From a virus: a stretch of 63,896 bases of DNA. The stretch spans positions 1-63,896 of IMG/VR virus record IMGVR_UViG_3300044516_000384; one strand, given 5' to 3'. A program made the translations under genes and the position numbers. The number at the start of each line of letters is the position of its first letter. The first letter of the stretch is position 1. The notes beneath the pieces are model-generated. The model was not told the origin of the DNA, made no database searches, and saw only the letters and a list, made by a program, of their open reading frames with translations. Below, in pieces: positions 5,704-58,884 of the stretch.

Positions 5704-6474
5704 ATAGACTTTCTTTTGGTCACTATTGGCGATGCAATCAAGATCAAAACTACGAGCAAGATCTCTGATTGCTGCATATGATTTACCATCTCGTAGAATA
5801 CACTGAACGGCCAGTGGTTCACCATTGATCACTGGCCCATCTTCCCAAGCAAGTACGACATTGTCCCCAGCGACAAGCCGAACAAAGTCACGCACAGGCG
5901 CGTATGTCTTTCCATTCTGCAATAAGGCAACAATGTGGTTGTCTCCGTACACAATCTTCCAATCCTGCCCAGCTTGAATCAATGACCATGGACGTATAAA
6001 ACGGACCGCGTTTTTATTACGATTTCCATATAGTGGTCGGTGGGCTACTTCATATCCATTGCGACTTCCATCGTTATTACTATTCCCCTCAATGGATTTC
6101 CAAATACCATTCTCATCTTTTCCTTCAACAATCCCAATGTGAAATGCATCTTGATGTCCATTGTTTAAAGTCTTTACCAAGATGACTAAATCACCAGCCA
6201 TAGGTGTTGTATGCAATACACCATATTTCTTAGCAACAGCTAACCAGACATCGCAGTCTGCACTGAAACATAATGGCCAATCCAAACCACTCTTATCTTC
6301 CCACTCCATTGCAATCCCACTTACAAATGACGCGCACCAAAAGCTACCTAATGGTGCATGCACATTTGTGTTCCACCTATCAATCAGTGGGCCACGATTG
6401 CTACCAACTGGTTGCTCAGATACATCAATGTATTTTTCTGCAATAGAAATAAACAAATCAGCATTAGTAGTCAT
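5683..6474 (-). CDS. Endolysin: CHAP-type cysteine amidase/peptidase with stalk-like C-terminal domain
   Basis: A 263-aa cell-wall hydrolase. The N-terminal domain has the catalytic pattern of CHAP/TIGR02594-like enzymes: Cys47 in FWCASFV, His112 in FHIGIVEG and a likely third residue in IEGNSNN near 131. Residues about 185-262 hold two YAPVRD / YAAIRD-type units with a KKVYLK end, as in the copper-amine-oxidase-N/stalk domain known from many Firmicutes surface proteins, probably for wall attachment. There is no signal peptide, so a holin is needed for export. It overlaps the end of the giant gene by 11 nt and is the last gene of the late arm. Confidence 0.85.
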   Translation of the reverse strand: MTTNADLFISIAEKYIDVSEQPVGSNRGPLIDRWNTNVHAPLGSFWCASFVSGIAMEWEDKSGLDWPLCFSADCDVWLAVAKKYGVLHTTPMAGDLVILVKTLNNGHQDAFHIGIVEGKDENGIWKSIEGNSNNDGSRNGYEVAHRPLYGNRNKNAVRFIRPWSLIQAGQDWKIVYGDNHIVALLQNGKTYAPVRDFVRLVAGDNVVLAWEDGPVINGEPLAVQCILRDGKSYAAIRDLARSFDLDCIANSDQKKVYLKKKSS

Positions 6475-12400: not shown

Positions 12401-15400
12401 CTTTTCACCACCAACTACATCAGCAATTTTTGTTCCACTTGTAGCAAGCCATGCCCAGTCAGTGAAGTGAGTTTGTGCAATATTCTGATAGTAATCTTTT
12501 TTGTGACGTGCTGTCGCATAAACCATTGCGTAACGAACTTGTTTATCTGTCAGGGTTCCATCAGCCTTCATTCTAGTAAAAGCTTCACTTAGTGACATAC
12601 GTCTTGCAACATTCATGAACTCATCTGCAATAACATCACTACCAGTAATACGCCTTACGATATCCGCGTATCCTTTGATAACTCCCTCAGACGCCTTAGT
12701 CATTTCACGATTGATGGCTCGCGTTGCATGTCCATATGCAAACATGTCATACATGTCCGCCAATCCAGCAGCTAACTGTCTTGCAGCCTGTACATCACGA
12801 TCAAGACGAATAGCGACTTCTGTATCACCTACAACTGATCCACGTGCACGTTCGTTATACATTTCAGTGATACGCTCAAGAACCTTTATGTCTTCTTGAC
12901 GCATTCCAGACTTATCTATCTTGTCGTATGAGTCAGCCATAAATTTTGCGACTCGAACATCAACTTTACTCATGTCTACAGGAACAATAAATAAGGATGA
13001 CCCACCATATCTACTGTCTACAGAACCACTAGTCAATGGTCTATGAGGCTCGTTGTTTACTACATTTTTAAACTGAATAGCATCACTGCGAGTGCCATCA
13101 GATAATATTGCATGTCCAATACCGATGCGATATGCGTGATTATCACTAACTTTTGTAAAGTCTATATCAGATGTGCCAGCACGTGGGACCAAAACCTTTA
13201 AAACATCTGTAGGCTTTAATCCAATTTCACTACCAAACGCTTTCATGTGTTCTATTAAATCGGCAACGGTATTAATGCCGTCACGTCGCATTGCATCATT
13301 GATAAATTTTCTGGATGCAGAAATCCTGTCGCTCATCGATCTTTCTGATGGCAGTAAACGAGCTGTTTTACTTACCCAGTTATTTACAATAATGCCTTTT
13401 ACTGCATCTGTTAATGTAATTTGTGATGGGTCATTACTCATCTTTAAGACATTCAAGACTTCTAAGCCATTAACTGAACTCTTAATTACTGACCCTTGAC
13501 TATCTACATTTGAGTCGCCGAGAATTTCAATAAATTCCTGACCTCTACCACTAAATGAATTTCGTAGAATGCCTTCAAAAATACTTTGAACACCTGCTCT
13601 GTTGTGTCCAACAAACGTTTGCACTGATGCTTTACCCGGAGCATTATTGTCCGCTGAATGCATCTTCTCACTTTGCTCCATCTCAAATGCGTCTTGAATA
13701 ATTAATGGAGCATCCGACACAAAGTCAAGCAGGTCTTGTTCTACATCTACTGGTTTAAGTTGTTCTGCATCTTGCTCAGTTACGTCAATAACACGTACAG
13801 GCGACTCCGCATTTTCAGCTTCAATTTCACCAAGAGTAGTAGCAACTTCTGGTCGCAGTTCTGCAGCATCAGCACGTAAACCCTGTAGTGTTATGCGTCC
13901 TGATTCATCTACCTTGATAGGAGTTGTCAGGAACTCAGCAGCTTCAGCTACGCGAGCACGACGTGCCTGTGCTGAACTTTCAGCTACTGCTGCTTGTGTT
14001 GCAGCCTGTACTGGTATTGTTTTCCACTGTTGTTTAAATACAGCGTTAGTCTTATATAACTCAGTTATGCCAGCTGACAGTTCATTCTGTAAATAGTCAT
14101 ATATACCCTTGTCTGTCATAAATACAGACTCAAGCATGCCCGGCATATCAAAGTCACTTAGTAATTTAAAGACGTTATTTATATCGGTATTGAATTGGCT
14201 AACAAAAGAGGCCTCCTCTTTATCTCTGTCAATAACACCTTCAGTAAAGAAACCAGCTTCAAATAATGCTTGTAGTTTTCTTAACTTAGCTGCCTCATCA
14301 AGTTTCCCAGATGCTTCAGCTTCTCTTATGCGCTGAGGAAGAATGTTGTCTACATATTCTTTAGTGTCAGCTTCAGCAGCGCCATAATCAAAAGTACTAG
14401 TATCAATGTTATCTAAAACATTTTGCTCATTGTCTCCAAGTACACCAAGGATACTAGTATTTACTGATCGAGTTTGCTTTCCCCTGACCTCTACTGTCTT
14501 AAGATTGCCTGATGGTGTATAGAATCCTACTGCATCATTGTAAGATTGAAGTGCATCGTTAACTGCAAGTTCTATAGCGGTTCTAAATTTGTTAACTAAT
14601 GGTAATTTACCGATAGGTGTAACATATCCATCAGCATCTTCAGACACAGTATCCAATGCATTGATCAAATTCCGTACAGTCTTGACTAGGCCTATACGAG
14701 AACTAGCGAATTCATCAAATGCTTCTTTCCGGATGTCAGAGATTTTTGCGCCAGCAATACGCTCAGCATCAGTATCCTCATTATCTTTTGCGCGAGCATA
14801 CTCAAGCTTGGCTTCAATCATGTCAGGCCTCTTACTGACATAACTTAAGAATGCTTCTTGTTGACCTATAAACTCTTGTCTTATCTGCCTAATTGCTGTG
14901 TGTATAGCTTCAATGTTTTTACGACGTAAACCTTTACTTAATTCACGAGCGTCAACACCCATAGCGTCGGCAAGCAATTGCATTGACCTTGTCGTGACGT
15001 GATCATCAAGTTCTTTTTCAATTGATTTCGCTTCACCATTAGTTTCAGTGATTGGTGTTGTTTTACCAGTAGCATCTGTAACAGCTTCGTAATTAGTTTT
15101 TTGTGCTGGATTTAATTCATCAACCTGTTTAAGTAAATCCTGTAAAGATTCTACGTAACGCTTTTTCGTCACTGGGTCAACATCTGAATTATTGATTGTA
15201 TTAATAACCATCTGCCTATTGTTGTCAGATGAAGAAATCATATTTAAGAATGCAAGTGTATTTGTGCCATCCGGCGTTCCATCTTCTTGGAATGCCATAA
15301 ACCTACCATCGCGCAGCTTAGCATTTGTCTCTGTGCGTAAGATGTTTAACTGCAAGCCGTTGGCTATATAACCAGCTGCTTTACGTGCAAAGTCTATAGA

Positions 15401-18400
15401 CGCTTCAGGATTTAATGAGTTAAGTCTAATCGTAGCTCGTTGGTCAACAGTATTTGCTTGATAGTAGAAGAACTCTAATCCGAGTGCGTGTAATTCTTCC
15501 AATGCCTTATCGCCAAACGCTAGGACATAATCCTTTGCGTCACGCTTTGCTTTGTTATAAGAGGCTTCATTCTTCCAGAAATCTGCTAGTGAGTCAGGTA
15601 AGTTGCTATCTTTAATAGATTGCCGTATCGCTTCATCACGCGCTGCATATATAGCTCTACCTAAACTAACTTGGGCCTCAACACGTAGTCCAGCAATAGA
15701 ATCAATGTGCCACTGTGTACTCATGTGATAGAAGGCTTGACCAGCGACAGATCGCATCAACTTACTTAGAGCAGTGACCTTAGCCAGAGATAAATCATTT
15801 ACCTCATCTTCTGTTAACCGCAACGCTTTAACAGCAGATCTAAATAATGCAGCATCTGTCTTTGATTGACTTGGCCGACCAAGTAGCAGGTTGATCTGAT
15901 GAGCGACTTGGAATACGCGAGGTCTAGCTGTACGACTATATGATGATGGGATCTTAGCGTTTGCAGATGCAAATGCCTCAGACATTACACCTAATGAATC
16001 AAGATGTTGATGTACTTGGTTAAGAGTTACCTCAAACCCATCACCTGAGAACATACGAGCAATACGACTAATGGCGCCATAATCAACATCGCTGTTTGGT
16101 CGAGTAACAGAATCTAATGCGTTGTACAACGCACCCATAGTGTCAATGATGCCATGCTCTAACGAGAATGATATTAAAGCTTCTTGTATCTGAGCAACTG
16201 GGGCAGTGCCATTAAGTAAGACATCAAGTAAAACATCGTTAATTGTGTCAGGTGTTGCAGCCTTAATTTTTTCCCAAGCTTTTTGAGTGTCACGCCATCT
16301 CGTGTATGCTGCTGCATTTTCTTCATCAGTTAACGTTCTCTTCAATGGACGCAGTTGAGGTGTGCCTTCGCTTGGAGTAAACCCTGCAGCGCGTTCCCCT
16401 AATTTATAATCATCGCGAGCCGAATCCAAGACTACATCATTAGCACTAAGTGTATAAGACATGCCCTCTGGGTTGTCTAATGCTTTGACGGTAACCATTC
16501 CGTCTTTACTGTCAATTACGATAGCTTCTTTTTCAGGGTTAATGTTGTCGCCAATACGAGCAAGCACAACGTCACCAACGCGAGCTTTAGTATCATAAAT
16601 TAAATCACCGTTTGCAACTCGCCCAACAAATCCGGATTCAGCAGTAGTGTCTGCTAAATAATCGGATACTACTTGAGCAATTGCTAATTCTTTAGACTCG
16701 TCAGACATTTCTGATCTGGCTATATCGCCTAATCTATTAATCTGTTCAGCATTCAAAACAACGCGACTAACCGTACCTAGGTGCTGCAAAGGCATATCTA
16801 TATAGTTGACATCGCCACTTACAACATTGGACACTTGCTCAACCATAGACAACTTAGATGCGTAATCACCAGACAGTAGCTCTTGTTCTGTAAGCGGCTT
16901 GTATGTTGTTTGGTCACCTCCACGAGGTATACCCTGCATGATTATGGATCCATCTGGTAATTGATAAATACCAGTAGGGTTGACCATTCCCTCAATAGAG
17001 AGAAGTCTGCCAACAGTTGTCTGCTCTTCTCCAGTAACAGCATTCTTGCCTAAGTTAATGTCAGTTGGAAATGCATCTCTATCACCAGACTTAGGAAATG
17101 ATCTATCAGCAACTTCAGTTTCTGTACCTAAGCCAAGTTGCTCAACAGACTGCTTAACAGTTTGCTTGATATCAGTGTCACCACGTGGATTATCAGCAAC
17201 AAACTCCTTGTAGGACAGCGTCCTGATCACATCTCCATTAGCAGTGCGAGTGCGAACTACTACGCCACCACGGTTAGTAACACCAGTAACTATAGAAATA
17301 CCTAAAGGAGATCTATAAGAAAGAGCATTAGGCTCAACATTCATTTCATCAACAGCAAACTTCGTTAACTGTTCTGTGCGACCAGTGCCACGTAACCGTG
17401 TAACGTCTTTTGCGTCAATGATTTGTACATCTGCAAAGTCAGCTAACTCTGTGCGGACAACATCTGTAAATGTTTTGTTGTAAACAAGGTATTCTTGTTT
17501 GCCACCTTCTTCAGCTGGTAATTTGACAGCATAGAAATCCTTACCGCCAATCTTAGATGCATCAATAGGCTCAACTACTTTCTCCGTAGGAGGAATATCA
17601 GCACCTAACGATATGCGCATCTGTGGCTCAATTTCTTTTGCCAATGCGTTAATCTGATTCTTCTTTCCAACAGCCGTAGTTGGATAAAGTGATTCATTAT
17701 TCTGTAAAGTTAGAAGAGGATTGTCAGGTCCTACGGGTTGATTATCGCCCTTAGTTCGTGCCAACTGTAACAATGTGTCAACTGCTTCTTGCTGTACGTT
17801 TCTGCCAGACATCATTTCTGCAAAAATAGCAGATGGACTATTCCAAGCGGTCCCCGGTGTCTGTCGATCAGCAGCAAATTGTTGACCCGCCATCTTACGC
17901 AGTTGACTCACGATACGTTTAAGGTCACCGACATTTGCGTCCTGACCACCAAAATTACTCTTGAATCGTTCGTTAGCCATTTGGATAAATGTGTCGCCAT
18001 TCTCCACAATGTTCTTTGCTTCAAGCACAGAGTAACTTTTTGCGTTAGAGCCAGCATAAATATCTTTTCCGCCTATTTCAGAACGGAACAATCCCGACAA
18101 CTTACCAGCTGGACGCATTGCACCGAATGCCATGATTAATGAGCGTACATAATCCTCATTCTTCGGTGCTTCAACCTTGTCGTTATACTTAGACGAGATC
18201 GCCTGAGCTACAGGGTGAAGTAGGTTAGTTACACCAAAGGTTAAGTCTGGAACAACTTCGTTAGATAACTGCATATATTCAGCAGCTGTCTTACTACCTA
18301 AGTCTCGCAATGGATTGACACCAGTAGTCTTGATAGACTTATTGGCTTCCTTGACCATCTTATATAACTGACGTGCATCTTTATAAACACGTCCTGTTTG

Positions 18401-19756
18401 GCCACTAAACATAGCCATGCTAACACCAAGTTCACCCCACGCTAATGATGGATCATTTGCTTGGATAGCAGAACGTGCTGCCTTTTCTTCTTCTGGTTGC
18501 AATGATTCTAGGTATGAGTTAATTGGGTCACCAGCAATAGCAAGCGCTTTACCAGCTGTAGTTTCAGGGCCAACTAATGTACTACCAACACCAAGTGCAG
18601 TTGGGGTCAACATACCTGCAGTACGTGCTACATTTAATGTTCCAACCTGCGTTGCAAACGGAGTAGCTAATTTAACTGCAGCCTGTCCATACAGTTGCAT
18701 CACAGGGATTGTTGCAGCCAAGGACACAGCTTGCATTGCCATGCGCTCACCGTAGAATCTACCTACTTGATATGTCTTGTCATTGACATCACCAAACTTC
18801 CGCATATAGGCTTCTTCGTAGTCTTTGTCTTTAACCCCAAACATACGATTGCCAATTTGTGGAGCACCCATTGTAAATTGCTGGGCACCTTGTTCAGCAC
18901 CTGCTCCCAAAGCAAGATTAAAATCTGGTTCTAACTGACTACTAATATCTTCCCATGGTTTAAATTCACCTCGTAATCGTTTTTGTTCTACATCAGCGAC
19001 ACGACGTTGTTCAGCTTCATATGCAGAAGCTAACGGTGAATATTCATCTTCCTCAGAAGAACCAACTCCTCGTGTTTCACGTGGCCTAAGAGATGAACCT
19101 AAACCACTGCCAACTCCAATAAATCCAGAAAGAGTTCCCTCTGTCAATATCTTGCCGGTTTGATCTGGTGCGTTTTTTAATTTAGCTATACCACCAGCCA
19201 AGCCAGCTTTTTCTTCAGCTGATGCTGCTTCGACATCCTCTACTGATTCTTCAGCACCACGATACTGGCCACCCATCATCAGTTTTGATGCAGGAACCAT
19301 TTGTCCTGTGCCAATATCTTCTACTTTAGTAGTTGGTACTTTACTTACAACGTCTTTATACTTTGCGCTTAACTGATCATATTCTGACGGTTTAATATAA
19401 CCATTCCGGTATGCATATGTAAGGTTGTTTAATGTTTCTCGTCCAACAACATCAAAGCTACCTTCATCAAGTTTTTTCTTAAGTGGCTCAATAAACTTAG
19501 ATCTTACGTCTCTTGCTTTAGCGTTTTCTTCAGCTATTTGTGAATCAATATCTTTAAGGACAGCCGTGTAACTAGGTCCAGATAAATTACGTCTACCTAA
19601 TGGTTGACCAGCTTGTACAGCATCTGTCAATTTCTTACGTCTACGTAATAACTCGTCGCGTTTTGTTCTTCCTGCTTTTTCACTTGCAGGTTTTCCAACT
19701 GGCACATTTTCGTAACGGTTAGTACGTGGGTTATAACGTAAGATAGATCCTTGCAT
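6464..19756 (-). CDS. Giant 4430-aa virion protein with HEIGH metallopeptidase motif
   Basis: A single uninterrupted frame of 13.3 kb. ATG at 19756 follows AGGTAC and the preceding gene ends 9 nt before. Visible: a basic N-terminus (KAGRTKRDELLRRRKKL), long helical and coil-rich stretches, and an AHEIGHVLIDSL zincin motif with His at about 2488 and 2492. A C-terminal part (about residues 3880-4430) has many hydrophobic/amphipathic helices, including TAILGMVSNILSQYI near 4160. Huge proteins of this kind at the end of podovirus morphogenesis operons, next to gp7/gp20-like proteins, are ejected into the host; they include the DarB/large-polyvalent type. I recognise no polymerase catalytic motif. 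It may help DNA entry, cut host or virion proteins, or counter defences; these roles are inferred. Confidence 0.85.
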   Translation of the reverse strand: MQGSILRYNPRTNRYENVPVGKPASEKAGRTKRDELLRRRKKLTDAVQAGQPLGRRNLSGPSYTAVLKDIDSQIAEENAKARDVRSKFIEPLKKKLDEGSFDVVGRETLNNLTYAYRNGYIKPSEYDQLSAKYKDVVSKVPTTKVEDIGTGQMVPASKLMMGGQYRGAEESVEDVEAASAEEKAGLAGGIAKLKNAPDQTGKILTEGTLSGFIGVGSGLGSSLRPRETRGVGSSEEDEYSPLASAYEAEQRRVADVEQKRLRGEFKPWEDISSQLEPDFNLALGAGAEQGAQQFTMGAPQIGNRMFGVKDKDYEEAYMRKFGDVNDKTYQVGRFYGERMAMQAVSLAATIPVMQLYGQAAVKLATPFATQVGTLNVARTAGMLTPTALGVGSTLVGPETTAGKALAIAGDPINSYLESLQPEEEKAARSAIQANDPSLAWGELGVSMAMFSGQTGRVYKDARQLYKMVKEANKSIKTTGVNPLRDLGSKTAAEYMQLSNEVVPDLTFGVTNLLHPVAQAISSKYNDKVEAPKNEDYVRSLIMAFGAMRPAGKLSGLFRSEIGGKDIYAGSNAKSYSVLEAKNIVENGDTFIQMANERFKSNFGGQDANVGDLKRIVSQLRKMAGQQFAADRQTPGTAWNSPSAIFAEMMSGRNVQQEAVDTLLQLARTKGDNQPVGPDNPLLTLQNNESLYPTTAVGKKNQINALAKEIEPQMRISLGADIPPTEKVVEPIDASKIGGKDFYAVKLPAEEGGKQEYLVYNKTFTDVVRTELADFADVQIIDAKDVTRLRGTGRTEQLTKFAVDEMNVEPNALSYRSPLGISIVTGVTNRGGVVVRTRTANGDVIRTLSYKEFVADNPRGDTDIKQTVKQSVEQLGLGTETEVADRSFPKSGDRDAFPTDINLGKNAVTGEEQTTVGRLLSIEGMVNPTGIYQLPDGSIIMQGIPRGGDQTTYKPLTEQELLSGDYASKLSMVEQVSNVVSGDVNYIDMPLQHLGTVSRVVLNAEQINRLGDIARSEMSDESKELAIAQVVSDYLADTTAESGFVGRVANGDLIYDTKARVGDVVLARIGDNINPEKEAIVIDSKDGMVTVKALDNPEGMSYTLSANDVVLDSARDDYKLGERAAGFTPSEGTPQLRPLKRTLTDEENAAAYTRWRDTQKAWEKIKAATPDTINDVLLDVLLNGTAPVAQIQEALISFSLEHGIIDTMGALYNALDSVTRPNSDVDYGAISRIARMFSGDGFEVTLNQVHQHLDSLGVMSEAFASANAKIPSSYSRTARPRVFQVAHQINLLLGRPSQSKTDAALFRSAVKALRLTEDEVNDLSLAKVTALSKLMRSVAGQAFYHMSTQWHIDSIAGLRVEAQVSLGRAIYAARDEAIRQSIKDSNLPDSLADFWKNEASYNKAKRDAKDYVLAFGDKALEELHALGLEFFYYQANTVDQRATIRLNSLNPEASIDFARKAAGYIANGLQLNILRTETNAKLRDGRFMAFQEDGTPDGTNTLAFLNMISSSDNNRQMVINTINNSDVDPVTKKRYVESLQDLLKQVDELNPAQKTNYEAVTDATGKTTPITETNGEAKSIEKELDDHVTTRSMQLLADAMGVDARELSKGLRRKNIEAIHTAIRQIRQEFIGQQEAFLSYVSKRPDMIEAKLEYARAKDNEDTDAERIAGAKISDIRKEAFDEFASSRIGLVKTVRNLINALDTVSEDADGYVTPIGKLPLVNKFRTAIELAVNDALQSYNDAVGFYTPSGNLKTVEVRGKQTRSVNTSILGVLGDNEQNVLDNIDTSTFDYGAAEADTKEYVDNILPQRIREAEASGKLDEAAKLRKLQALFEAGFFTEGVIDRDKEEASFVSQFNTDINNVFKLLSDFDMPGMLESVFMTDKGIYDYLQNELSAGITELYKTNAVFKQQWKTIPVQAATQAAVAESSAQARRARVAEAAEFLTTPIKVDESGRITLQGLRADAAELRPEVATTLGEIEAENAESPVRVIDVTEQDAEQLKPVDVEQDLLDFVSDAPLIIQDAFEMEQSEKMHSADNNAPGKASVQTFVGHNRAGVQSIFEGILRNSFSGRGQEFIEILGDSNVDSQGSVIKSSVNGLEVLNVLKMSNDPSQITLTDAVKGIIVNNWVSKTARLLPSERSMSDRISASRKFINDAMRRDGINTVADLIEHMKAFGSEIGLKPTDVLKVLVPRAGTSDIDFTKVSDNHAYRIGIGHAILSDGTRSDAIQFKNVVNNEPHRPLTSGSVDSRYGGSSLFIVPVDMSKVDVRVAKFMADSYDKIDKSGMRQEDIKVLERITEMYNERARGSVVGDTEVAIRLDRDVQAARQLAAGLADMYDMFAYGHATRAINREMTKASEGVIKGYADIVRRITGSDVIADEFMNVARRMSLSEAFTRMKADGTLTDKQVRYAMVYATARHKKDYYQNIAQTHFTDWAWLATSGTKIADVVGGEKLYGFMTKIRRDEAVMNLVAIGKGSSNGYRSAFTLAHEIGHVLIDSLDPQLQAKFMETLFPDNMEGTIIEPLNKASFTSDDNPYAVMRAQLIAVRKAVESGKFTTLQDAWKTDPRLVNYSERWHTAGHEMGVTGLLNMALRNDFVISDNDAASIDYDMMSVLEQVSGPLNAFARQIMKSNPTDLVMINGAPRAVWVGKLPVVSYTTTNRPSSSKKKGFVKREITRPFISMRRNDFVRFSVTPQLNRQVGGMFFGPETLVGGMNDPAFRSTSKPAHMGYGYEVEYDSRETYLPVSDGQAAAILADRNTESFVAPRGSMANKTYDPATGAQTNTFNGQVVGMIVKTKFTNIDDVRAAGFEPALRTQDPVDKTKSYWWVKSAVEGDSWFTPRAYQTAGSEAMNQRGARYQTAVTDDYAYVVESPVTVWYKDSTPDGPKWRTKTTNSKFILGQTALLNDSMQAKMMGNTGGYDAKFSNLIYNMNRKFNLAQYQMRGDLRFRDQQVLENELGLGVSKKFERNYSFDPQLDLQTRLGSYMGSEQQRVVAASGIDYGARISAGSRVFKNTMWNIMKQSEDYFSDIGYLTEAGESFIGSVNDALIDVTDFIKKASLYRHNDKALNSVRGMSTDAPVVLVGRNSPEARAMQAFYDTVVQTAPDGSSDAEARLYAKRVYRRIYDVMNNFDATGVNKGMSLESIADMLESDPMTTDASSYFEIDVDGQPVNVLPILNTMFSSGLLHISETSAGEFGNERVVSQDQEFEDTFNDTVLSLNRGFDITSNNRLDQGAASVAAGHVMNLLFKHVYSKPSQQKDFLQRLQSEDINVRARALSEVQSVALLSDLQSREIGRALYNWQEFKIIGDSFAQKNNVIIEHESGATFRVSLTDNSVSSVHKDPFTGTWIDGDHLNDRVSLYKTEASDAPRKKAKGDVVEDITQDQIINILSETERNELATRKSIIIARPMSIEDLINNNAEADTTSGLRLYKVDAVRKTQSLGGIQATEKIGISSETGMSFTATELANPYKSVYEDGSNNQDIASQNPRLLIDTVFKNNILNDKQREAVGNKKIVPMQVHVAKLLTSQELLRGLKEGTSLESWMENSKKLTTVREAFFEAENGSVYKEVSSAVVKSDEGSTWMSSGYDMADVEDIMPDQYKHAMDPGFEIPEKFADDPGVVQAYRELQATRFIKEATTVPAEPKNLVIHNDDTINGVHSSSQVKGDTLYISIPTRVFEETASALFSTSSSPTPGGPTTTPSVVKLAPGQMSKMPWYKTKKGRAVSSVLSGIWVELTSIAKAAVLNYDFGRTFIQNYALTSMNPKNAMMQFYGLTAILPNLPFGSSPTTGKGGFGKLVGAISGHRKLGAYGDKMYHRIVQGLFSKYGTPGNEIRLGILPFGPKTEVFGLGNPGSGRAYTIDDLTKAGLVTDYGQWFAEATKLALMNGTDVYDYAIQNTTSESLGSGVLAKLLPAANAIERGNSLSTDILRIKSWLEYAAQVDSNILLSQYQKMKMKQDHATHINAISGAPAGSDPALKPVVKNILDFGRTVMSAPQWHKSQAMQTLLPAFISMGLKATANNVIMGFNKHADPLGIGDGWVDNYAERRFFSRGKESWIQTARVFANMVMQTAILGMVSNILSQYIDNKRFLAQNKTPTDWNDFATIFGYNHKKFQGVAVGPKLFDNLNPMKEGFGKLRLFNSVLYDLPQSATFFNRTLVEPFQRASKATSTDEALRTYFESVAQTTFFSKLTSLAGYAKTAATGKTFTGAPALQQSKGYDVMREGRIKIPFSPMTIMDPVYRAALGENASELSLSLTNVQYQSFMNDIAIYDAITKGTGDNELSDTLKWSMYLRLFGVNSRFNNYALKDQIDELRLNGLFYDLKEASQYPNAPEIASKYGMRGVVSGIPDSAPQDQARMMYQLPSEKTKSLSKLDKKKFAEAVTKSPDLKIPLKPILPSDEKQGPSIMEQALQEEEERMQRKNLERGRNRYDY

Positions 19757-19764
19757 GTATGTAC

Positions 19765-21660
19765 CTATTCTCTTCCAAGTAATGAGTCTATAACACCCTG
19801 TAATTCCTTGGTGGCGTCTTTATAATACGTTGTCTTGCGTACCTTTTCTGCTGCGTTTTGTGGAATACCGTTTACGCGTTGTTCAAGTCTTTGCATTGAA
19901 GCTAATTTACTAGTTGGCTGGTATTTAAGTGCGTCATTCAACGCTTTTAGATTAGCTCTAGAAATTACGCCAAGAGCAGTACCAACTTGATCTGGTGTTA
20001 CACCACTAGGTAATGCACCACTAATAATTCCAACTGACTGCAATATAGCTTCTTTGGCGTCTGGCGCAGCAGTAGCGAGTGTTCTTCCAGCCGAGTCAAG
20101 TTGCTCTGATCTACTATAAGCTCTAGCTCGTCCAAGATTGATACCACTTATAGAAACAGAGAGAGCTTCTTTATCTGCATCATTTGTAATATCAACAGCT
20201 CGTGCCGTTCTGTCAAGTGCTTTTTGCTCTGCCTCAAAACGCCTCTTAATGTCATCGCGAACGCCTTCCATAAGAGCCTTAGCAGCTTCATTGGAATCCT
20301 TACCTCGTGATTCTGCACGTGACCTACTAGTCTCGGTTGGATTAAAAATATCTGTAGATCTATTATAGATAGATGTTAATGCTGCTACAGCTTTTTCATC
20401 ATTTGCTAAATAATTTTGTAATAGCGATTCATTTTTTGGGCTAAATAATTGTATCTCTGGTTGATCTAAACCAAGCGCGATTTGAGCCTGATAAGGTGTG
20501 ACCTTATTTGTAGCTGCCCATTCTTTAATAAAGTTAAGAACTTTTGGCAATGCAATCTGCGTAGCTTTTACAGGATTAAATGTGACTTCAGCTGGGATAT
20601 ACGCACCAACCGCTACATCTTTTCCATTGCTTGCGCGATAAACGCCACCAGTTGTATTGTAACGACCCGGTTTAAAATCGTATGCACCGGCCTCATACTC
20701 GTTAATGCCTCTATCTTTTAAACCCTTCCTAAACGCATCTTTATCAGCAGCAGTTAACGTAGTATCTTTTTCAATCTTATACTCTTTGCCAGCAAGAATA
20801 TCAGCTACGCTAATTTTATTTACTGGAGGTTCTACAGGTTTCTGCGCTGCAGGTGCATTTGGATCTGGCATACCAGTTGGTTTTGTGGCTGCATTTGTAT
20901 CTGGTGGTGGCGGAGGTGGTTTTTGTTCACCACCCGGTGCTGGCATACTACCCGGTGCTGGCATACTACCCGGTGTTGGCATACTACCCGGTGCTGGCAT
21001 ACTACCCGGTGCTGGCATGTTAGATACATCAGGCACAGCAGTTGATGTATTAAACCCAACATTACTGGGCAATACTTTATTTGTCCCCGGTGCCTGTACT
21101 CCCGGAGCCTTCATGTCTAATAAGTCTGGTGGCGACCATGGTTTACTGTCATCAAATATATCGCCAAGTCCTTGAGCTGTAGCTTGTTCACCGTAAATCC
21201 CTTTTAAGTCCTCAAGCATCTTTCGTTCATCTTCAATCTCACCGCGTATTAAAGCTTCTGTAGTTGGAGTCAGATTTCTGTCTGCTAATTTTGGAAGCAA
21301 TGCTTGAATTTTCGTACGTGATTTATTTGATACATCAAACCATTGTGCTTTTAAAGCAGTTCGTTCTTTAGGTAATTTACTTTTAAGGTCAATGATAGCA
21401 GCTTGTCGTTGACCTGCTCTGATTGGAGCATTAGAGTTCCATTCTGCAAGTTCACGGTTGTATTGATCTACCTGTCTTTTATCAGCGTCAACGCCACGTT
21501 GATAAGTATCGTCAGCCCGCCTGCCTTCCGACATACGCTGTTCAGACTGTAAACGCTCTTGACTAAATTGCTGTTGTTGTTGTTGCCTTTGACCTTTACC
21601 TTGCTGCAAGGTATCAAGGAAAGACAGTAACCCAGTTACACCACCAGAGTTAATTTTCAT
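19765..21660 (-). CDS. Putative ejection (internal virion) protein, 631 aa
   Basis: The N-terminus is strongly Gln/Arg-rich and helical (SFLDTLQQGKGQRQQQQQQF), residues about 214-243 are five PAPGSM-type repeats followed by a Pro-rich linker, and the C-terminal half is again helical. Size, position between a gp7-like gene and the giant gene, and the low-complexity linker fit a P22 gp20-like internal protein that leaves the capsid with the DNA. Sequence identity to a named family was not recognised. It starts 3 nt after the 249-aa gene ends. Confidence 0.65.
   Translation of the reverse strand: MKINSGGVTGLLSFLDTLQQGKGQRQQQQQQFSQERLQSEQRMSEGRRADDTYQRGVDADKRQVDQYNRELAEWNSNAPIRAGQRQAAIIDLKSKLPKERTALKAQWFDVSNKSRTKIQALLPKLADRNLTPTTEALIRGEIEDERKMLEDLKGIYGEQATAQGLGDIFDDSKPWSPPDLLDMKAPGVQAPGTNKVLPSNVGFNTSTAVPDVSNMPAPGSMPAPGSMPTPGSMPAPGSMPAPGGEQKPPPPPPDTNAATKPTGMPDPNAPAAQKPVEPPVNKISVADILAGKEYKIEKDTTLTAADKDAFRKGLKDRGINEYEAGAYDFKPGRYNTTGGVYRASNGKDVAVGAYIPAEVTFNPVKATQIALPKVLNFIKEWAATNKVTPYQAQIALGLDQPEIQLFSPKNESLLQNYLANDEKAVAALTSIYNRSTDIFNPTETSRSRAESRGKDSNEAAKALMEGVRDDIKRRFEAEQKALDRTARAVDITNDADKEALSVSISGINLGRARAYSRSEQLDSAGRTLATAAPDAKEAILQSVGIISGALPSGVTPDQVGTALGVISRANLKALNDALKYQPTSKLASMQRLEQRVNGIPQNAAEKVRKTTYYKDATKELQGVIDSLLGRE
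20933..21019 (-). repeat. 18-bp in-frame tandem repeat (about 5 units)
   Basis: Five nearly perfect units of an 18-bp sequence (plus strand CCCGGTGCTGGCATACTA, with one C-to-T change in unit three) encode PAPGSM repeats in the 631-aa protein. Being a multiple of three, copy number can change without breaking the frame. Confidence 0.9.
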
Positions 21661-50564: not shown

Positions 50565-50584
50565 CTTTTTCTCCTCTAACCTAA

Positions 50585-50658
50585 TGTCTACGACAGGACT
50601 TGAACCTGTGGCCAATTGCTTAGAAGGCAATTGCTCTATCCACTGAGCTACGCAGACA
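50585..50658 (-). tRNA. tRNA-Arg (anticodon TCT)
   Basis: Minus strand cloverleaf: acceptor TGTCTGC/GTAGACA (one G-U pair), D arm with AGCTC...GAGC, anticodon stem ATTGC/GCAAT with loop CTTCTAA (anticodon TCT, AGA codon), T arm ACAGG-TTCAAGT-CCTGT. CCA is not encoded. It lies immediately after tRNA-Leu and probably shares its promoter. Confidence 0.93.
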
Positions 50659-50660
50659 GA

Positions 50661-50741
50661 TGCTCCAGACGGGACTCGAACCCGTACACCTTGCGGTAAC
50701 AGATTTTAAGTCTGTCGTGTCTACCATTTCACCACCGGAGC
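50661..50741 (-). tRNA. tRNA-Leu (anticodon TAA)
   Basis: Minus strand: acceptor GCTCCGG/CTGGAGC (one G-U pair), anticodon stem ACAGA/TCTGT with loop CTTAAAA (anticodon TAA, codon UUA), a long variable arm as in class II tRNAs, and T arm ACGGG-TTCGAGT-CCCGT with discriminator A. It decodes UUA, a codon favoured by an AT-leaning genome. Confidence 0.93.
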
Positions 50742-50749
50742 AGTGAGTT

Positions 50750-50758
50750 ATTGTATCA
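50750..50758 (-). promoter_or_regulatory. Extended -10 promoter candidate for tRNA-Leu/tRNA-Arg
   Basis: Minus strand TGATACAAT (TGn plus TACAAT), ending 8 nt before the tRNA-Leu 5' end, which would put the transcription start right at the mature tRNA start region. It lies just outside the 3' end of the 79-aa gene. No -35 hexamer is evident. Confidence 0.5.
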
Positions 50759-50765
50759 CAATGTA

Positions 50766-51005
50766 TTACATGAGATCTGGTTTATCTTCATCAGTGATTT
50801 GTATGACTTCCACTCCGGGTAGTTCTGACAGTTGCCACATGATGAAGTAATTTTTGAATTGTTCGTCAGTTACTGTTTCAGGATCAATGTTCTTTTCTTC
50901 CATCCACAGATACAGTTTGTTGTATTTAATGTATTTAGAAATAGACTCTATAACAATGTATAGGATTGCCGATGCAATTATTCCGTAGAGGAATCCTGCT
51001 ATCAT
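50766..51005 (-). CDS. Small membrane protein, 79 aa
   Basis: N-terminal transmembrane helix (GFLYGIIASAILYIVIESIS) followed by a charged soluble part containing KNIDPETVTDEQFKNYF and an acidic end. ATGA overlap with the SNase gene supports the start. No recognised family. Confidence 0.75.
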   Translation of the reverse strand: MIAGFLYGIIASAILYIVIESISKYIKYNKLYLWMEEKNIDPETVTDEQFKNYFIMWQLSELPGVEVIQITDEDKPDLM

Positions 51006-51385
51006 TCAGTCACCACTGCGGTAGCTTTAACAATCTTTCGTTTAGTTCCACCTGTGTATGTGTATGTACCTAGTGTGTTCATAATCTCTGTGTTTAACGC
51101 AGATGGAGATCGATCAGTTTTTACGTATACTAGTCGCCGTCCGTATTTATCTGACTTTTGAAGTACCGTGATAATGAATCGTTCGGCTGTATTTTGTCTT
51201 GAGGTAAACCATTCTTTTGCTGTTTCCGTAGCTGCTTTACCTTCGGGAGTGTTCTTTTCTGGTGTATCCACGCCAAAGAGGCGGCAGTGCTGATCCACAA
51301 GCCAGATACCAAACCCAAGATCAATATCACAAACAAAAGTATCACCATCAATAAGTCTTTTGAATCTAATGTTGTACTCATACAT
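51002..51385 (-). CDS. Staphylococcal nuclease-like (SNase) protein
   Basis: A 127-aa domain with DGDTFVCDIDLGFGIW, then CRLFGVDTPE (catalytic Arg) and KYGRRLVYV, the core of the thermonuclease family, which cleaves DNA and RNA with Ca2+. No signal peptide is present, so it acts inside the cell, possibly on host nucleic acid. The start overlaps the upstream stop as TAATG. Confidence 0.85.
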   Translation of the reverse strand: MYEYNIRFKRLIDGDTFVCDIDLGFGIWLVDQHCRLFGVDTPEKNTPEGKAATETAKEWFTSRQNTAERFIITVLQKSDKYGRRLVYVKTDRSPSALNTEIMNTLGTYTYTGGTKRKIVKATAVVTE

Positions 51386-51771
51386 TATCTATGCCTTGCT
51401 GCTTTCTGTGCTACGGTACGTGGCTGTGCAACAAACTGCTTACCTGCTTTATTACCAGCGGCTTTAGCACGATTAGTAGATGCTACTTCACTCTTAGATA
51501 ACGATCCCCATGCCTTGTCTGGCAGGTAGCGCTTCTTGCCTTCACTTGGTTTTCCGTCACTTGTGCGCCACTTCTGTTCTGTCCATTTGGACAGGCTGTT
51601 GTCAGCCTTCTTGGGTCCTACATATGAACCACCAGAGGCCTTGTATTGTTGTGTAGCAAGTTGCGCTTTACGTGCTGACCATTCACCGGGGTCACCACCT
51701 TTTGTCCCTGCTTTAACGCTAGAGACAATTCGACTCCACTTAGCTGGATCTTTTTTTACTGCTGTAGCCAT
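51385..51771 (-). CDS. Basic protein, DUF5872-like, 128 aa
   Basis: Residues about 57-128 (LSKWTEQKWRT, SEGKKRYLPDKAWGSLS, NRAKAAGNKAGKQFV) match a small basic viral family I recall as DUF5872, found in several phages and giant viruses; its function is unknown. A TATAAT lies only 5 nt before the ATG and there is no ribosome site, so the mRNA may begin at the A of ATG. Confidence 0.75.
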   Translation of the reverse strand: MATAVKKDPAKWSRIVSSVKAGTKGGDPGEWSARKAQLATQQYKASGGSYVGPKKADNSLSKWTEQKWRTSDGKPSEGKKRYLPDKAWGSLSKSEVASTNRAKAAGNKAGKQFVAQPRTVAQKAARHR

Positions 51772-51776
51772 AGACT

Positions 51777-51782
51777 ATTATA
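51777..51782 (-). promoter_or_regulatory. -10 promoter element, probably giving a leaderless mRNA
   Basis: Minus strand TATAAT, 3 nt after the U-run of the terminator and 5 nt before the ATG of the DUF5872-like gene. A start site about 7 nt after the -10 would fall on the initiation codon. No Shine-Dalgarno sequence lies upstream. Confidence 0.55.
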
Positions 51783-51785
51783 GCC

Positions 51786-51815
51786 AAAAAAGACCAGTGT
51801 GGCTGACTGGTCTTT
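51786..51815 (-). terminator. Intrinsic terminator downstream of tRNA-Asn
   Basis: Minus strand AAAGACCAGT pairs perfectly with ACTGGTCTTT around CAGCCAC, followed by a run of six U. On the plus strand the same hairpin has only three terminal T, so it works mainly on the minus strand. Confidence 0.85.
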
Positions 51816-51826
51816 CCTGTTTGCAG

Positions 51827-51898
51827 AGTTAGAATTTGTCGGGCAAGAAGAGGAGTTTTCTGGCCTTTCAAAGCTCACCTCTCGGTGGCAATCTAACT
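51827..51898 (-). other. Possible structured RNA element, 72 nt
   Basis: Lying between tRNA-Asn and a terminator, it begins AGTTAGA and ends TCTAACT (7 perfect pairs) and contains a CACC-GAGA-GGTG hairpin with a GNRA-type loop. It has the length of a tRNA but no T-arm or anticodon arm can be drawn, so it is not called a tRNA. The remainder is largely unpaired. Confidence 0.4.
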
Positions 51899-51931
51899 AT
51901 ACCATCCCGGTGCGTTTACATGCATGGGAAA

Positions 51932-52003
51932 CTCCTGCTGCTGGGATCGAACCAGCGACCGTCCGGTTAACAGCCGGATGCTCTACCGCTGAGCTAAGCA
52001 GGA
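51932..52003 (-). tRNA. tRNA-Asn (anticodon GTT)
   Basis: Minus strand cloverleaf: acceptor TCCTGCT/AGCAGGA perfectly paired, D arm AGCTC...GAGC, anticodon stem ATCCGG-side with loop CTGTTAA (anticodon GTT), T arm GCTGG-TTCGATC-CCAGC, discriminator G. CCA not encoded. Confidence 0.95.
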
Positions 52004-56644: not shown

Positions 56645-56760
56645 CAATCATCATATGCATATTCATAACAATGTTATCCATCATATTTTTAATAGGGTGG
56701 TTTTTTAATTCAATTAATGAAGCACAAAACCGTATTGACAAGGAGACAGAAAATGAATAA
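56641..56760 (+). CDS. Small membrane protein, 39 aa
   Basis: Starts on ATGA overlap with the previous gene. One hydrophobic helix (IIICIFITMLSIIFLIGWFF, residues 3-22) and a short charged tail (NRIDKETENE). It overlaps the next gene by 8 nt, so the cluster is tightly coupled. Unknown. Confidence 0.6.
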   Translation: MTIIICIFITMLSIIFLIGWFFNSINEAQNRIDKETENE

Positions 56761-57148
56761 ACAAATCATCAGTGCCCATGAGTTGGCACGTAACGTAATT
56801 AAGGCCTACGAGATAGCTGACGCCCTCATCACGGGCGTTGAGTTCCATAACTCAGAGAATGGTAGGTCAAAGCATCGATCGACTATCAATGGCGTACTTG
56901 AAGTCAGATTACATATGCATTATGAACGCATGACTTCTGCTGTGTACACAATCTACATTCAGATACATGACAACAAGTGGACACTGACAGCGCATGGTTA
57001 TCTTAATGATGTCAATGTCGAGTATTCAAGTACTGATACTGACATGACATACAACTACCTTGATCTTAAGGAATGGATCAATGACTTTGTTGCCACCGTC
57101 TATCAACTCAAAGTTGCAGAAGTACACGGCATCGTAGTCATCCCATAG
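56753..57148 (+). CDS. Hypothetical protein, 131 aa
   Basis: ATG at 56753 (MNKQIISAHE) is chosen because AAGGAG lies 8 nt upstream; a frame from 56717 is less likely. Helical N-terminus (ELARNVIKAYEIADALI) followed by beta strands (YTIYIQIHDNKWTLTAHG). Its stop is followed after 6 nt by pseudoknot copy 1. Not recognised. Confidence 0.72.
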   Translation: MNKQIISAHELARNVIKAYEIADALITGVEFHNSENGRSKHRSTINGVLEVRLHMHYERMTSAVYTIYIQIHDNKWTLTAHGYLNDVNVEYSSTDTDMTYNYLDLKEWINDFVATVYQLKVAEVHGIVVIP

Positions 57149-57154
57149 TTAGAC

Positions 57155-57183
57155 GTGAGGGATGCGTCTCACCAACAACGCAT
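57155..57183 (+). promoter_or_regulatory. H-type pseudoknot RNA element, copy 1
   Basis: Stem 1 GTGAG (155-159)/CTCAC (168-172), loop 1 GG, stem 2 ATGCGT (162-167)/ACGCAT (178-183), loop 3 CAACA. It lies between the stop of the previous gene (6 nt before) and the start of the next (14 nt after). Confidence 0.75.
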
Positions 57184-57197
57184 GAAAGAAAAACACA

Positions 57198-57530
57198 ATG
57201 ACTGACCTAACACATTACAGGACTATCATCCTGCGATTCGCTTACTTACATATCCACCCCGGTGGTGGTCTTGCCGCGATGATTATGCTTAAGCCTGGCT
57301 TTGAAGACAAACTCGATCACATAGCACAGACTAATCTGTGTGAGTTGCTCAGGTTTGCAAATGCACACGTTCCATACGACACACGCAATGCACAAGGATT
57401 CAATGACTGGCTTGGCGAGGAGCCAAACATGTTTGAGAAAGAGTCATTCAATAAGTGGATGTCGGCAATCACGCCAATGCCACGACCTACACCTGCAGGA
57501 TGGGAGGAGGTAGATACTACCAGTGTCTAA
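57198..57530 (+). CDS. Hypothetical protein, 110 aa
   Basis: Helical with a His/Gly-rich segment (HIHPGGGLAAMIMLKPG) and Trp-containing WLGEEPNMFEKESFNKWM. Preceded by pseudoknot copy 1 and a weak GAAAG ribosome site. Not recognised. Confidence 0.75.
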   Translation: MTDLTHYRTIILRFAYLHIHPGGGLAAMIMLKPGFEDKLDHIAQTNLCELLRFANAHVPYDTRNAQGFNDWLGEEPNMFEKESFNKWMSAITPMPRPTPAGWEEVDTTSV

Positions 57531-57771
57531 ATATACATACCACAATCAACAGTATGACTTTCAGGGCCGAGCAATCGGCCCTGTTGGTGTCTTTCATAAT
57601 GCCACTGTCGCAAAAACAGTGGCTCGTTATCTTGTATACATGCAACCAGAAATCATGCACATCAGGATTTCAAGATGCCTTGAGCATACATATGAATTTG
57701 AGCCGTTCATGATTGTTTACATGAACATTGTAACTGACAAAGCTAAAGTAAGTAGAAGGAAAGTATTTTAA
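57523..57771 (+). CDS. Hypothetical protein, 82 aa
   Basis: GTG start with GGAGGAGG about 12 nt upstream, overlapping the previous gene by 8 nt. It looks beta-rich (FQGRAIGPVGVFHNATVAKT, YVNIVTDKAKV). Basic end. Not recognised. Confidence 0.7.
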   Translation: MSKYTYHNQQYDFQGRAIGPVGVFHNATVAKTVARYLVYMQPEIMHIRISRCLEHTYEFEPFMIVYMNIVTDKAKVSRRKVF

Positions 57772-57772
57772 A

Positions 57773-58036
57773 ATGAGATTTGTACCTGTAGTGTTGTACG
57801 GTTCACTTGTACTTGAAAAGTTATTAAAAGAGAAATTAATAACAAAAGATCATTACGATCATATGTGGGAAAGATTTAAAGCTCTTGGTAACTCACTCAA
57901 TTATGTATTAATTGATCTTGATGAGGTAACTCTCAATCTTGAGGAAGTTGAATCAATAATGATAATGAATTACATAAGAGCTCAAGAAAACATAACGGAC
58001 CACGAGTTTTCGTTCAACATCAAAATTGCTATCTAA
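57773..58036 (+). CDS. Hypothetical protein, 87 aa
   Basis: Helical (LVLEKLLKEKLITKDHYDHM) then acidic (IDLDEVTLNLEEVESI). One nucleotide separates it from the previous stop. Pseudoknot copy 2 follows after 7 nt. Not recognised. Confidence 0.75.
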   Translation: MRFVPVVLYGSLVLEKLLKEKLITKDHYDHMWERFKALGNSLNYVLIDLDEVTLNLEEVESIMIMNYIRAQENITDHEFSFNIKIAI

Positions 58037-58043
58037 TGTTTGT

Positions 58044-58072
58044 GTGAGGGGTGCGCCTCACTGACAACGCAT
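58044..58072 (+). promoter_or_regulatory. H-type pseudoknot RNA element, copy 2
   Basis: Stem 1 GTGAGG (44-49)/CCTCAC (56-61), a 1-nt loop, stem 2 GTGCG (51-55) with CGCAT (68-72) including a G-U end pair, loop 3 TGACAA. Slightly different arm lengths from copies 1 and 3 but the same topology and position. Confidence 0.7.
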
Positions 58073-58088
58073 AGAAAAGAAACACATC

Positions 58089-58580
58089 ATGTCTATCGAA
58101 ATATACACAAAGTATTTCCGCGAGAATCTTCTCTCTGTTCCTGCAAAAGTAGCAGACGGTACCTTGTACTCATATGGTGGCTACCATACATGTTCACATA
58201 CAGATACCGTTGAACTCAACGGGCATCACATATCAATGGAGTACAAGCTGCGTATGGACGTAGCTAATGGTGAAGAGAAGACTCTTCATCCTATTCCTCT
58301 TGTTCAAATTGAAGTGACTATGACATTGCGTCCTGACAAGGATAGCCGTGAAACATCGTCATTTATGAATAAGATCATCAAGGTTCAGCTTAACAGCGAG
58401 ACTCTTGAAGAGCAGATTGATGAGGCGATTCAGACACTGGAGCGCATCATTATAGATGTGAAGTTGCCGACTATTGCCTTTGACTTCTGGAAGTATGTTG
58501 CTACGGCAATGCCAGACTTTGAGAAGCAAGTCAGCAAGACGATTGTAACTAACTACCAACGTCTGTCCTACAAGGACTAG
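58089..58580 (+). CDS. Hypothetical protein, 163 aa
   Basis: Beta-rich N-terminus with SYGGYHTCSHTDTVELNGHH (His/Cys) and a helical C-terminal half (NSETLEEQIDEAIQTLERI). Preceded by pseudoknot copy 2 and followed by copy 3. Not recognised. Confidence 0.78.
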   Translation: MSIEIYTKYFRENLLSVPAKVADGTLYSYGGYHTCSHTDTVELNGHHISMEYKLRMDVANGEEKTLHPIPLVQIEVTMTLRPDKDSRETSSFMNKIIKVQLNSETLEEQIDEAIQTLERIIIDVKLPTIAFDFWKYVATAMPDFEKQVSKTIVTNYQRLSYKD

Positions 58581-58586
58581 TTAGAT

Positions 58587-58615
58587 GTGAGGGGTGCGTC
58601 TCACTAACAACGCAC
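58587..58615 (+). promoter_or_regulatory. H-type pseudoknot RNA element, copy 3
   Basis: Stem 1 GTGAG (87-91)/CTCAC (600-604), loop 1 GG, stem 2 GTGCGT (94-99)/ACGCAC (610-615), loop 3 TAACA. The first pair of stem 2 is G-C here where copy 1 has A-T, a compensatory change that keeps pairing. Confidence 0.78.
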
Positions 58616-58641: not shown

Positions 58642-58884
58642 ATGTATCGACAATGGTATGAACGCAAAATCAAACTTGATGATGGATATCAAGTGTCTAT
58701 TATCTGCAAACAACTGGTTAGTTATGGAGAAGATGAAAAGTTGTTTGAATGTGCTTTGATTACACCAGATGATTACGTCGATGATGATTCTGTAACAGGT
58801 TACTTAGACTTTCATCAGGTTGCAGAGTACATCAATAAAGCTAAGGAAAAACACAATGAAATACACAGAACCAACGTTTCGTAA
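58642..58884 (+). CDS. Hypothetical protein, 80 aa
   Basis: ATG at 58642 (MYRQWYERKI) has GAGG 8 nt upstream; the frame from 58594 runs through pseudoknot copy 3. Contains VSIICKQLVSYGEDEKLFE and an acidic middle (DDYVDDDSVTG). Overlaps the next gene by 29 nt. Not recognised. Confidence 0.72.
   Translation: MYRQWYERKIKLDDGYQVSIICKQLVSYGEDEKLFECALITPDDYVDDDSVTGYLDFHQVAEYINKAKEKHNEIHRTNVS

Follow-up and report, generated by a model that had tools for sequence, protein, structure and literature searches.

The locus considered here raises the question of why a virus should keep the same small RNA fold between several pairs of its genes, and of what that fold does there. The DNA is contig IMGVR_UViG_3300044516_000384 of a virus, which we considered over its whole length of 63,896 bases (hereafter, the window) and for which an initial annotation had described three H-type pseudoknots between neighbouring genes. 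We found the three copies at the positions and on the strand that it had given, with the topology and geometry that it had described in all of them and with the series of first stem-2 pairs that it had read (Table 1). The copies share stem 1 GTGAG/CTCAC plus one extra G-U or G-C pair, the dinucleotide GG, stem 2 RTGCG/CGCAY, a 1-nt junction and a 6-nt loop. Each of them is flanked on both sides by genes on the same strand, and in copies 1, 2 and 3, respectively, the distance from the stop codon to the element is 6, 7 and 6 nt and that from the element to the next ATG is 14, 16 and 26 nt, as the spacings of 6-7 and 14-26 nt in the initial annotation had it.

Table 1. Coordinates in the window of the three pseudoknots, of their parts and of the adjoining genes.
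Feature	Coordinates	Strand	Remarks
Pseudoknot copy 1	57155..57183	+	first stem-2 pair A-U
Copy 1, stem 1	57155-57159/57168-57172		GTGAG/CTCAC
Copy 1, loop 1	57160-57161		GG
Copy 1, stem 2	57162-57166/57179-57183		ATGCG/CGCAT
Copy 1, loop 3	57173-57178
Pseudoknot copy 2	58044..58072	+	first stem-2 pair G-U
Copy 2, stem 1	58044-58048/58057-58061
Copy 2, loop 1	58049-58050		GG
Copy 2, stem 2	58051-58055/58068-58072		GTGCG/CGCAT
Copy 2, loop 3	58062-58067
Pseudoknot copy 3	58587..58615	+	first stem-2 pair G-C
Copy 3, stem 1	58587-58591/58600-58604
Copy 3, loop 1	58592-58593		GG
Copy 3, stem 2	58594-58598/58611-58615		GTGCG/CGCAC
Copy 3, loop 3	58605-58610
Gene upstream of copy 1	56753..57148	+	131 aa, no PHROG match, stop TAG 57146-57148
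Gene downstream of copy 1	57198..57530	+	110 aa; another family in its place in related contigs
Gene upstream of copy 2	57773..58036	+	87 aa, no PHROG match, stop TAA 58034-58036
Gene between copies 2 and 3	58089..58580	+	163 aa, no PHROG match, stop TAG 58578-58580
Gene downstream of copy 3	58642..58884	+	begins MYRQWYERK; family also found without the element

A pattern made from the letters shared by the copies matched three times in the window and not once in any of 100 dinucleotide shuffles of it. In a generic scan for this geometry the three copies fell in the top class, but similar pairing also arises by chance in other sequences. The three copies would not be decisive alone, and it is the homologues that decide.

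The PHROG assignments in the window include a terminase, a portal, a major head protein, a DnaB-like helicase and a thymidylate synthase. Among cultured phages the terminase has only distant relatives (25-30% identity), no DNA relatives of the window were found there, and none of the 163-aa neighbour. Elsewhere in the window, on the minus strand, one ORF of 4430 codons (6464-19756), a giant phage protein, ends beside a 263-aa ORF; a 631-aa ORF (19765-21660) carries tandem PAPGSM repeats; and three tRNA genes (Arg-TCT, Leu-TAA and Asn-GTT; 50584-52003) have no element adjoining them.

The pseudoknots of the window belong to a widespread and apparently undescribed RNA family, present in hundreds of unrelated bacteriophages. 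IMG/VR contigs match the pattern GTGAGGNNTGCGNCTCACN{3,7}CGCA in 42 stretches, usually with two or three copies in each and at the same junctions between genes, and some copies in these relatives of the window have compensated outer stem-1 pairs (CTGAG/CTCAG, CCGAG/CTCGG and CGAG/CTCG). Loosened to GAGGGRTGCGNCTCN{3,9}CGCAY, it was found in at least 119 stretches, in unrelated contigs. Stems other than GAG/CTC occur in at least 120 stretches of viral contigs, and a doubly changed stem 2 (GCGCG/CGCGC) also in at least 120. What the initial annotation described is the local form of a much wider family, in which the sequence of stem 1 is free. The apparent invariance of stem 1 GAG/CTC and stem 2 TGCG/CGCA among the narrower matches was an effect of the search pattern. 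Control patterns with a swapped stem 1, a swapped stem 2 or a broken stem 1 had no match in viral contigs, and those with scrambled constant letters had 0-5, versus 275. For the analyses below we collected 297 non-redundant copies from 251 loci with a stem 1 of at least 4 bp, a number that is a lower bound, as are the match counts behind it; IMG/VR records are partly redundant and ORFs were called by simple rules. In four sequences (L013, L014 and L018, near 8100, 8750 and 11390 of the searched strand, and L072:57-80) there is a fourth copy with a shorter stem 1 (CGAG/CTCG), which is absent from the window and precedes a gene starting MAAK.

The carriers are unrelated tailed phages with one to three copies per genome, and they include cultured phages of E. 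coli, Mycobacterium and Corynebacterium. By very short BLAST matches, with examples inspected, the element is present in about 100 phages of the Stephanstirmvirinae (E. coli, Serratia, Klebsiella) and in about 280 of the Bclasvirinae (M. smegmatis); further cultured carriers are the Corynebacterium phages phi673 and PSonyx and the Mycobacterium phages Arbiter and Vincenzo. In one uncultured group the portal protein shares 36% identity with its counterpart in Nonlabens phages, so that Bacteroidota are the likely hosts there. Phage Acadian (L309), which carries two copies, has a gene product (gp71) annotated as RNase E.

Bacterial genomes essentially lack the motif, which is phage-specific. Its commonest form had no match in 257 billion bases of bacterial and archaeal genomes. 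A looser form had five matches there, about the number estimated for chance, and two or three of them look like phage contigs inside metagenome bins; a form with stem 1 left free matched once in 395 genomes of one phylum, versus three times for its reversed control. No Rfam model matched at any element, at either gathering or permissive thresholds (E up to 10), in a scan in which only tRNA and RNAI models reached the cut-offs and whose models capture pseudoknots poorly; the initial annotation was thus right in seeing neither a preQ1 nor a SAM-II pattern. The open-access literature, searched by topic, held no description of the element, and a search with its sequence returned unrelated papers only.

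The consensus reads, from 5′ to 3′, a stop codon, 4-8 nt, stem 1, GG, [R][Y]GCG, N, stem 1′, a loop ending in A(A) and CGC[R][Y]. The whole element measures 25-30 nt, as in the 25-mer CGAGGGGUGCGACUCGGUAACGCAC, with stem 2 GUGCG/CGCAC. Stem 1 has 62 different sequences among the 297 copies, and loop 3 is mostly 4 nt long where stem 1 has 4 bp and 6 nt long where it has 5 bp, as is common. Hardly any variation is seen in loop 1 (GG), in the stem-2 core or in the AA that precedes stem 2′, and this suggests a particular tertiary fold or partner.

As far as its sequences indicate, stem 1 is constrained only to pair. Its outer pair, on which the search pattern sets no constraint, is U-A in 92 cases, C-G in 67, G-C in 11 and A-U in 8, so that 178 of 190 are paired versus 111 ± 4 after shuffling. 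In the set with stems other than GAG, stem-1 pairs 2, 3 and 4 are formed in 71, 76 and 56 of 88 cases (37, 34 and 32 when shuffled), and in the GCGCG set in 103, 103 and 80 of 115 (versus 84, 58 and 47). Among 59 distinct gapless 25-mers 95.3% of cells are paired and the covariation score is 0.335, versus 0.114 ± 0.012 for shuffled sets, none of 500 shuffles reaching 0.335; the covariation vanishes when the partners are slid, and three stem-1 and two stem-2 pairs are changed on both sides.

As regards stem 2, the first pair is G-C in 261 of the 297 copies, A-U in 18, G-U in 17 and A-C in one, and the second is U-A in 219, C-G in 77, U-G in one and C-A in none, the latter counts being partly so by construction because most copies were retrieved with paired patterns. 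A double change that is independent of any pattern is found at an orthologous junction of Acadianvirus, where stem 2 is GTGCG/CGCAC in most phages and GCGCG/CGCGC in Reprobate. Moreover, G-U is kept and A-C avoided (G-C 147, G-U 24, A-U 19, A-C 0; Fisher p ~1e-14). Judged by these substitutions, the element is an H-type RNA pseudoknot with two interleaved helices, both conserved by pairing. The initial annotation had proposed from three copies that selection acts on pairing, and both stems covary across hundreds of homologues; it had also named a lack of homologues with preserved stem-2 pairing in related phages as evidence against itself, and in the hundreds examined the pairing stands.

Some copies are accompanied by further structure. 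In two contigs, L102 (7355-7440) and L109 (around 1397), the pseudoknot is followed by a similar second structured stretch, a GACCCTTCGGGGTC-type hairpin and then GATCCGT.A, which precedes related genes (phrog_1392). In L339, L348, L351, L374, L404 and similar sequences, with stem 1 CCAG and stem 2 GCGCG, an extra hairpin (GGGTGG...CCACCC) lies directly 5′ of the pseudoknot, which stands about 30 nt behind the stop.

The orientation of the element is fixed to the transcript. A stop codon on the same strand lies 4-8 nt upstream of 199 of the 297 copies, versus 10 in the opposite-strand control, and the distance from the stop to stem 1 has its mode at 6 nt (5 nt, 48 copies; 6 nt, 73; 7 nt, 43; 8 nt, 24). 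About one sixth of the copies (50/297) have no stop trinucleotide 3-9 nt upstream, one such group having a hairpin just upstream. Compaction alone does not explain the spacing, because terminator hairpins in the same contigs lie at broadly spread distances behind stops (4-61 nt from the 5th to the 90th percentile, median 29). On the downstream side, the ATG of an ORF of at least 20 aa begins within 60 nt of 266 of the 297 copies (median 20 nt), and in nine copies a tRNA gene comes next, 3-11 nt away. Within 110 nt downstream a terminator-like hairpin follows only one of 275 copies (phage ukendt), and the element itself is not an intrinsic terminator, as no U-run comes after it. In L165-L169 (phi92, ukendt, Bas62, KKP_3264 and ZCKP1) an unannotated short frame lies between the last tRNA and the element; it ends with TGA in phi92 and TAA in ukendt, its codons are partly conserved (PAVS.K..P.SF), and it is possibly a mini-ORF kept for its stop codon.

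The upstream proteins fall into 71 clusters and the downstream ones into 65, and the function is therefore independent of particular genes; gene-specific autoregulation, of the T4 gene 32 type, is rejected on the same diversity. Within the phage group of the window the upstream gene is followed by the element in 74 of 75 cases, that is, behind homologues of the 131-aa gene in 16 of 17, of the 87-aa gene in 25 of 25 and of the 163-aa gene in 33 of 33. The 163-aa gene is followed by six downstream gene families, all of which also occur without the element. In some other groups it is the downstream families (D1, D10) that keep the element while the upstream genes vary; the gene association is therefore not uniform. 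In the mycobacteriophage Vortex (L305) a plain strong hairpin, GGCGGGA/TCCCGCC, replaces the pseudoknot before an orthologous gene. The cluster B mycobacteriophages have the element in a leftward operon at the right genome end, one copy sits between packaging and capsid genes, and some neighbours are ssDNA-binding, annealing or primase genes.

Taken together at the level of sequence, these data establish that an RNA knot under selection lies at phage gene junctions, at a distance that is tied to the stop codon. As for its function, the explanation that we prefer, and that we hold only tentatively, is a barrier that would abut the terminating ribosome and protect or insulate the upstream cistron. 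The 5′ edge, usually 5-8 nt behind the stop, would coincide with the mRNA entrance of a ribosome that has the stop codon in its A site, and the knot would act as a mechanical barrier touching that ribosome. If the polycistronic transcript were then cut downstream, by RNase P at an adjacent tRNA or within the unstructured spacer before the next ATG, the knot could shield the 3′ end of the upstream cistron from 3′-to-5′ exonucleases; it may also, or instead, insulate neighbouring cistrons from each other. A block of 3′ decay, which had been among the roles first suggested, is possible. The barrier fits the tRNA cases well, because after cleavage by RNase P no more than 3-11 nt would be left behind the knot as a tail; the xrRNAs are a precedent for pseudoknots by which viruses block exonucleases (PMC6299227), and it is also favoured by the tight stop spacing, the linkage to the upstream gene in the group of the window, the varied downstream content, the independence of particular genes and the hairpin that takes its place in Vortex. 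The near-absence from bacteria and the constancy of the core suit it less well: an RNA that only stabilised the transcript could do without a constant core, might occur in more than one to three copies per genome, and could be expected in bacteria too. Against it stand also the nearness of an ATG to 90% of the copies, the downstream families that keep the element behind varied upstream genes, as would fit a leader function, and the sixth of the copies without a stop just upstream.

That nearness of the ATG would suit a translation enhancer, in which the pseudoknot and an unstructured CA/UA-rich spacer would serve as a standby site by binding S1 or the 30S platform, and would aid the start of the next gene. 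S1-binding and 30S-docking pseudoknots are precedents for it (PMC7708055, PMC3858243), and the element is retained before D1 and D10 genes even though several upstream genes are found there. We consider it somewhat unlikely, given that the enhancer leaves the tight stop spacing unexplained, that one would expect a module of this kind in bacteria as well and that the group of the window swaps downstream genes freely, these genes occurring elsewhere without the element. To our knowledge, moreover, S1-binding pseudoknots do not require one fixed core. Control of the next gene's translation, as put forward in the initial annotation, accordingly keeps its proximity argument and is not established, with nine copies standing before a tRNA gene, one cultured group before a terminator and the element of the window's group following the upstream gene. 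The copies before tRNA genes, together with the leftward operon of the cluster B mycobacteriophages, speak for antitermination or anti-Rho activity of the put/nut kind. Here the nascent pseudoknot, standing in the first stretch behind a stop codon that is free of ribosomes, would target RNA polymerase or Rho and let phage transcription run on into the following cistron or tRNA array. The low copy number (one to three per genome), phage specificity and gene independence would be as expected, universal host partners would suit hosts from Escherichia to Mycobacterium, and Rho termination follows lost translation at gene junctions (PMC9239205). Such activity is nevertheless unlikely: three copies within 1.5 kb in the window are hard to explain by it, one copy lies between packaging and capsid genes, and a terminator-like hairpin is nearly always missing downstream.

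Recognition of the GG/stem-2/AA core by a phage protein, in the way that gp32 binds the T4 gene 32 pseudoknot, or by a small ligand (a minimal riboswitch) that would control the mRNA is an improbable reading, in spite of the near-invariant loop 1 and stem-2 core, which beside a free stem 1 look like a recognised core, and of the ssDNA-binding, annealing or primase genes among the neighbours. In fact, the neighbour clusters are unrelated, hosts and phages are too diverse for one phage regulator, the near-absence from bacterial genomes speaks against a metabolite riboswitch, and no Rfam model matches. Stimulation of readthrough, which had also been suggested initially, or of frameshifting in the upstream gene is very improbable, although the spacer of 5-8 nt equals that of pseudoknots with this role and lies within the ~5-9 nt taken for recoding stimulators. 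It is rejected because of stop identity and tandem stops: UAA makes up 133 of 176 stops and a second in-frame stop lies within 8 codons in 78 of 176. The median extension is 12 codons, we saw no shared slippery sequence, and no leaky stop or slippery site was found that leads into a conserved extension of the frame. Finally, both stems are inverted repeats in DNA, and among the relatives of the window it is at this site that one downstream gene has taken the place of another, so that one may think of interlocked repeats for a DNA-binding protein or of recombination sites. This is scarcely credible, as stem 1 varies freely and yet stays complementary; a DNA operator is rejected because G-U is kept with A-C almost absent, and because the strand is fixed.

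More broadly, to a universal phage RNA device we give appreciable, though less than even, credence. A single mini-pseudoknot would then have passed between unrelated phages, or arisen in them anew, in hosts that range from Escherichia to Mycobacterium; its target would be the terminating ribosome, or else the RNA just behind the stop where ribosomes are first absent, and it would work through a host partner common to these bacteria, which do not use it themselves. Among the structured RNAs of bacteriophages the element appears to be one of the smallest and most widespread. It is new to Rfam and to the open-access literature searched, and it is unannotated in culturable phages such as phi92 and BASEL Bas62 of E. 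coli, hundreds of M. smegmatis phages and phi673 of C. glutamicum. The fixed stop distance and the free stem 1 make it directly testable, and whichever mechanism is true (decay barrier, ribosome docking or antitermination), it would be a common trick of unrelated phages at gene junctions.

Among known systems, the frameshift and readthrough pseudoknots of Luteovirus and retroviruses share with the element the short H-type geometry and the 5-8 nt spacer to the decoding site; unlike them, the element has UAA stops, tandem stops and no conserved extension. The preQ1-I and SAM-II riboswitches are small H-type pseudoknots as well, whereas the element is without an Rfam match at permissive thresholds and nearly absent from bacterial genomes. 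The gene 32 pseudoknot of T4, T2 and RB69 is, like the element, an H-type fold in phage mRNA upstream of a start codon; it lies 67 nt upstream of one gene and is the repressor site of that same gene (PMC3014915). The element differs from it in being gene-independent and linked to a stop, in having a fixed stem-2 core and in recurring in unrelated phages. The put and nut sites of lambdoid phages are also phage-specific cis-acting RNAs with few copies per genome, but put consists of two stem-loops and nut of boxA plus a hairpin, neither being a pseudoknot. In lambda, nutR lies just behind the cro stop codon, and the copy number and location of the element would be compatible with a put/nut-like antiterminator. 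We know of no core sequence in common between the element and S1-binding or standby pseudoknots, and as a candidate of this type its position would be compatible in about 90% of the copies. SELEX has yielded H-type pseudoknots with nanomolar affinity for S1, and a fold of this type is essential for the standby translation of tisB (PMC7708055), and the rpsO pseudoknot docks on the 30S platform (PMC3858243); these are, like the element, small H-type knots near unstructured RNA before translation starts (PMC7708055, PMC3858243). The tisB and rpsO knots lie near the 5′ ends or ribosome-binding sites of single host genes, whereas the element is intercistronic and essentially absent from hosts. The xrRNAs, which block exonucleases, resemble the element in being compact, virus-specific pseudoknots that have a conserved core and are spread over unrelated viruses (PMC6299227). 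They stop 5′-to-3′ enzymes in eukaryotic viruses, and the element, different in sequence and fold, has resistance only as a candidate property, with which its position behind the stop and the short tail before tRNAs would be compatible.
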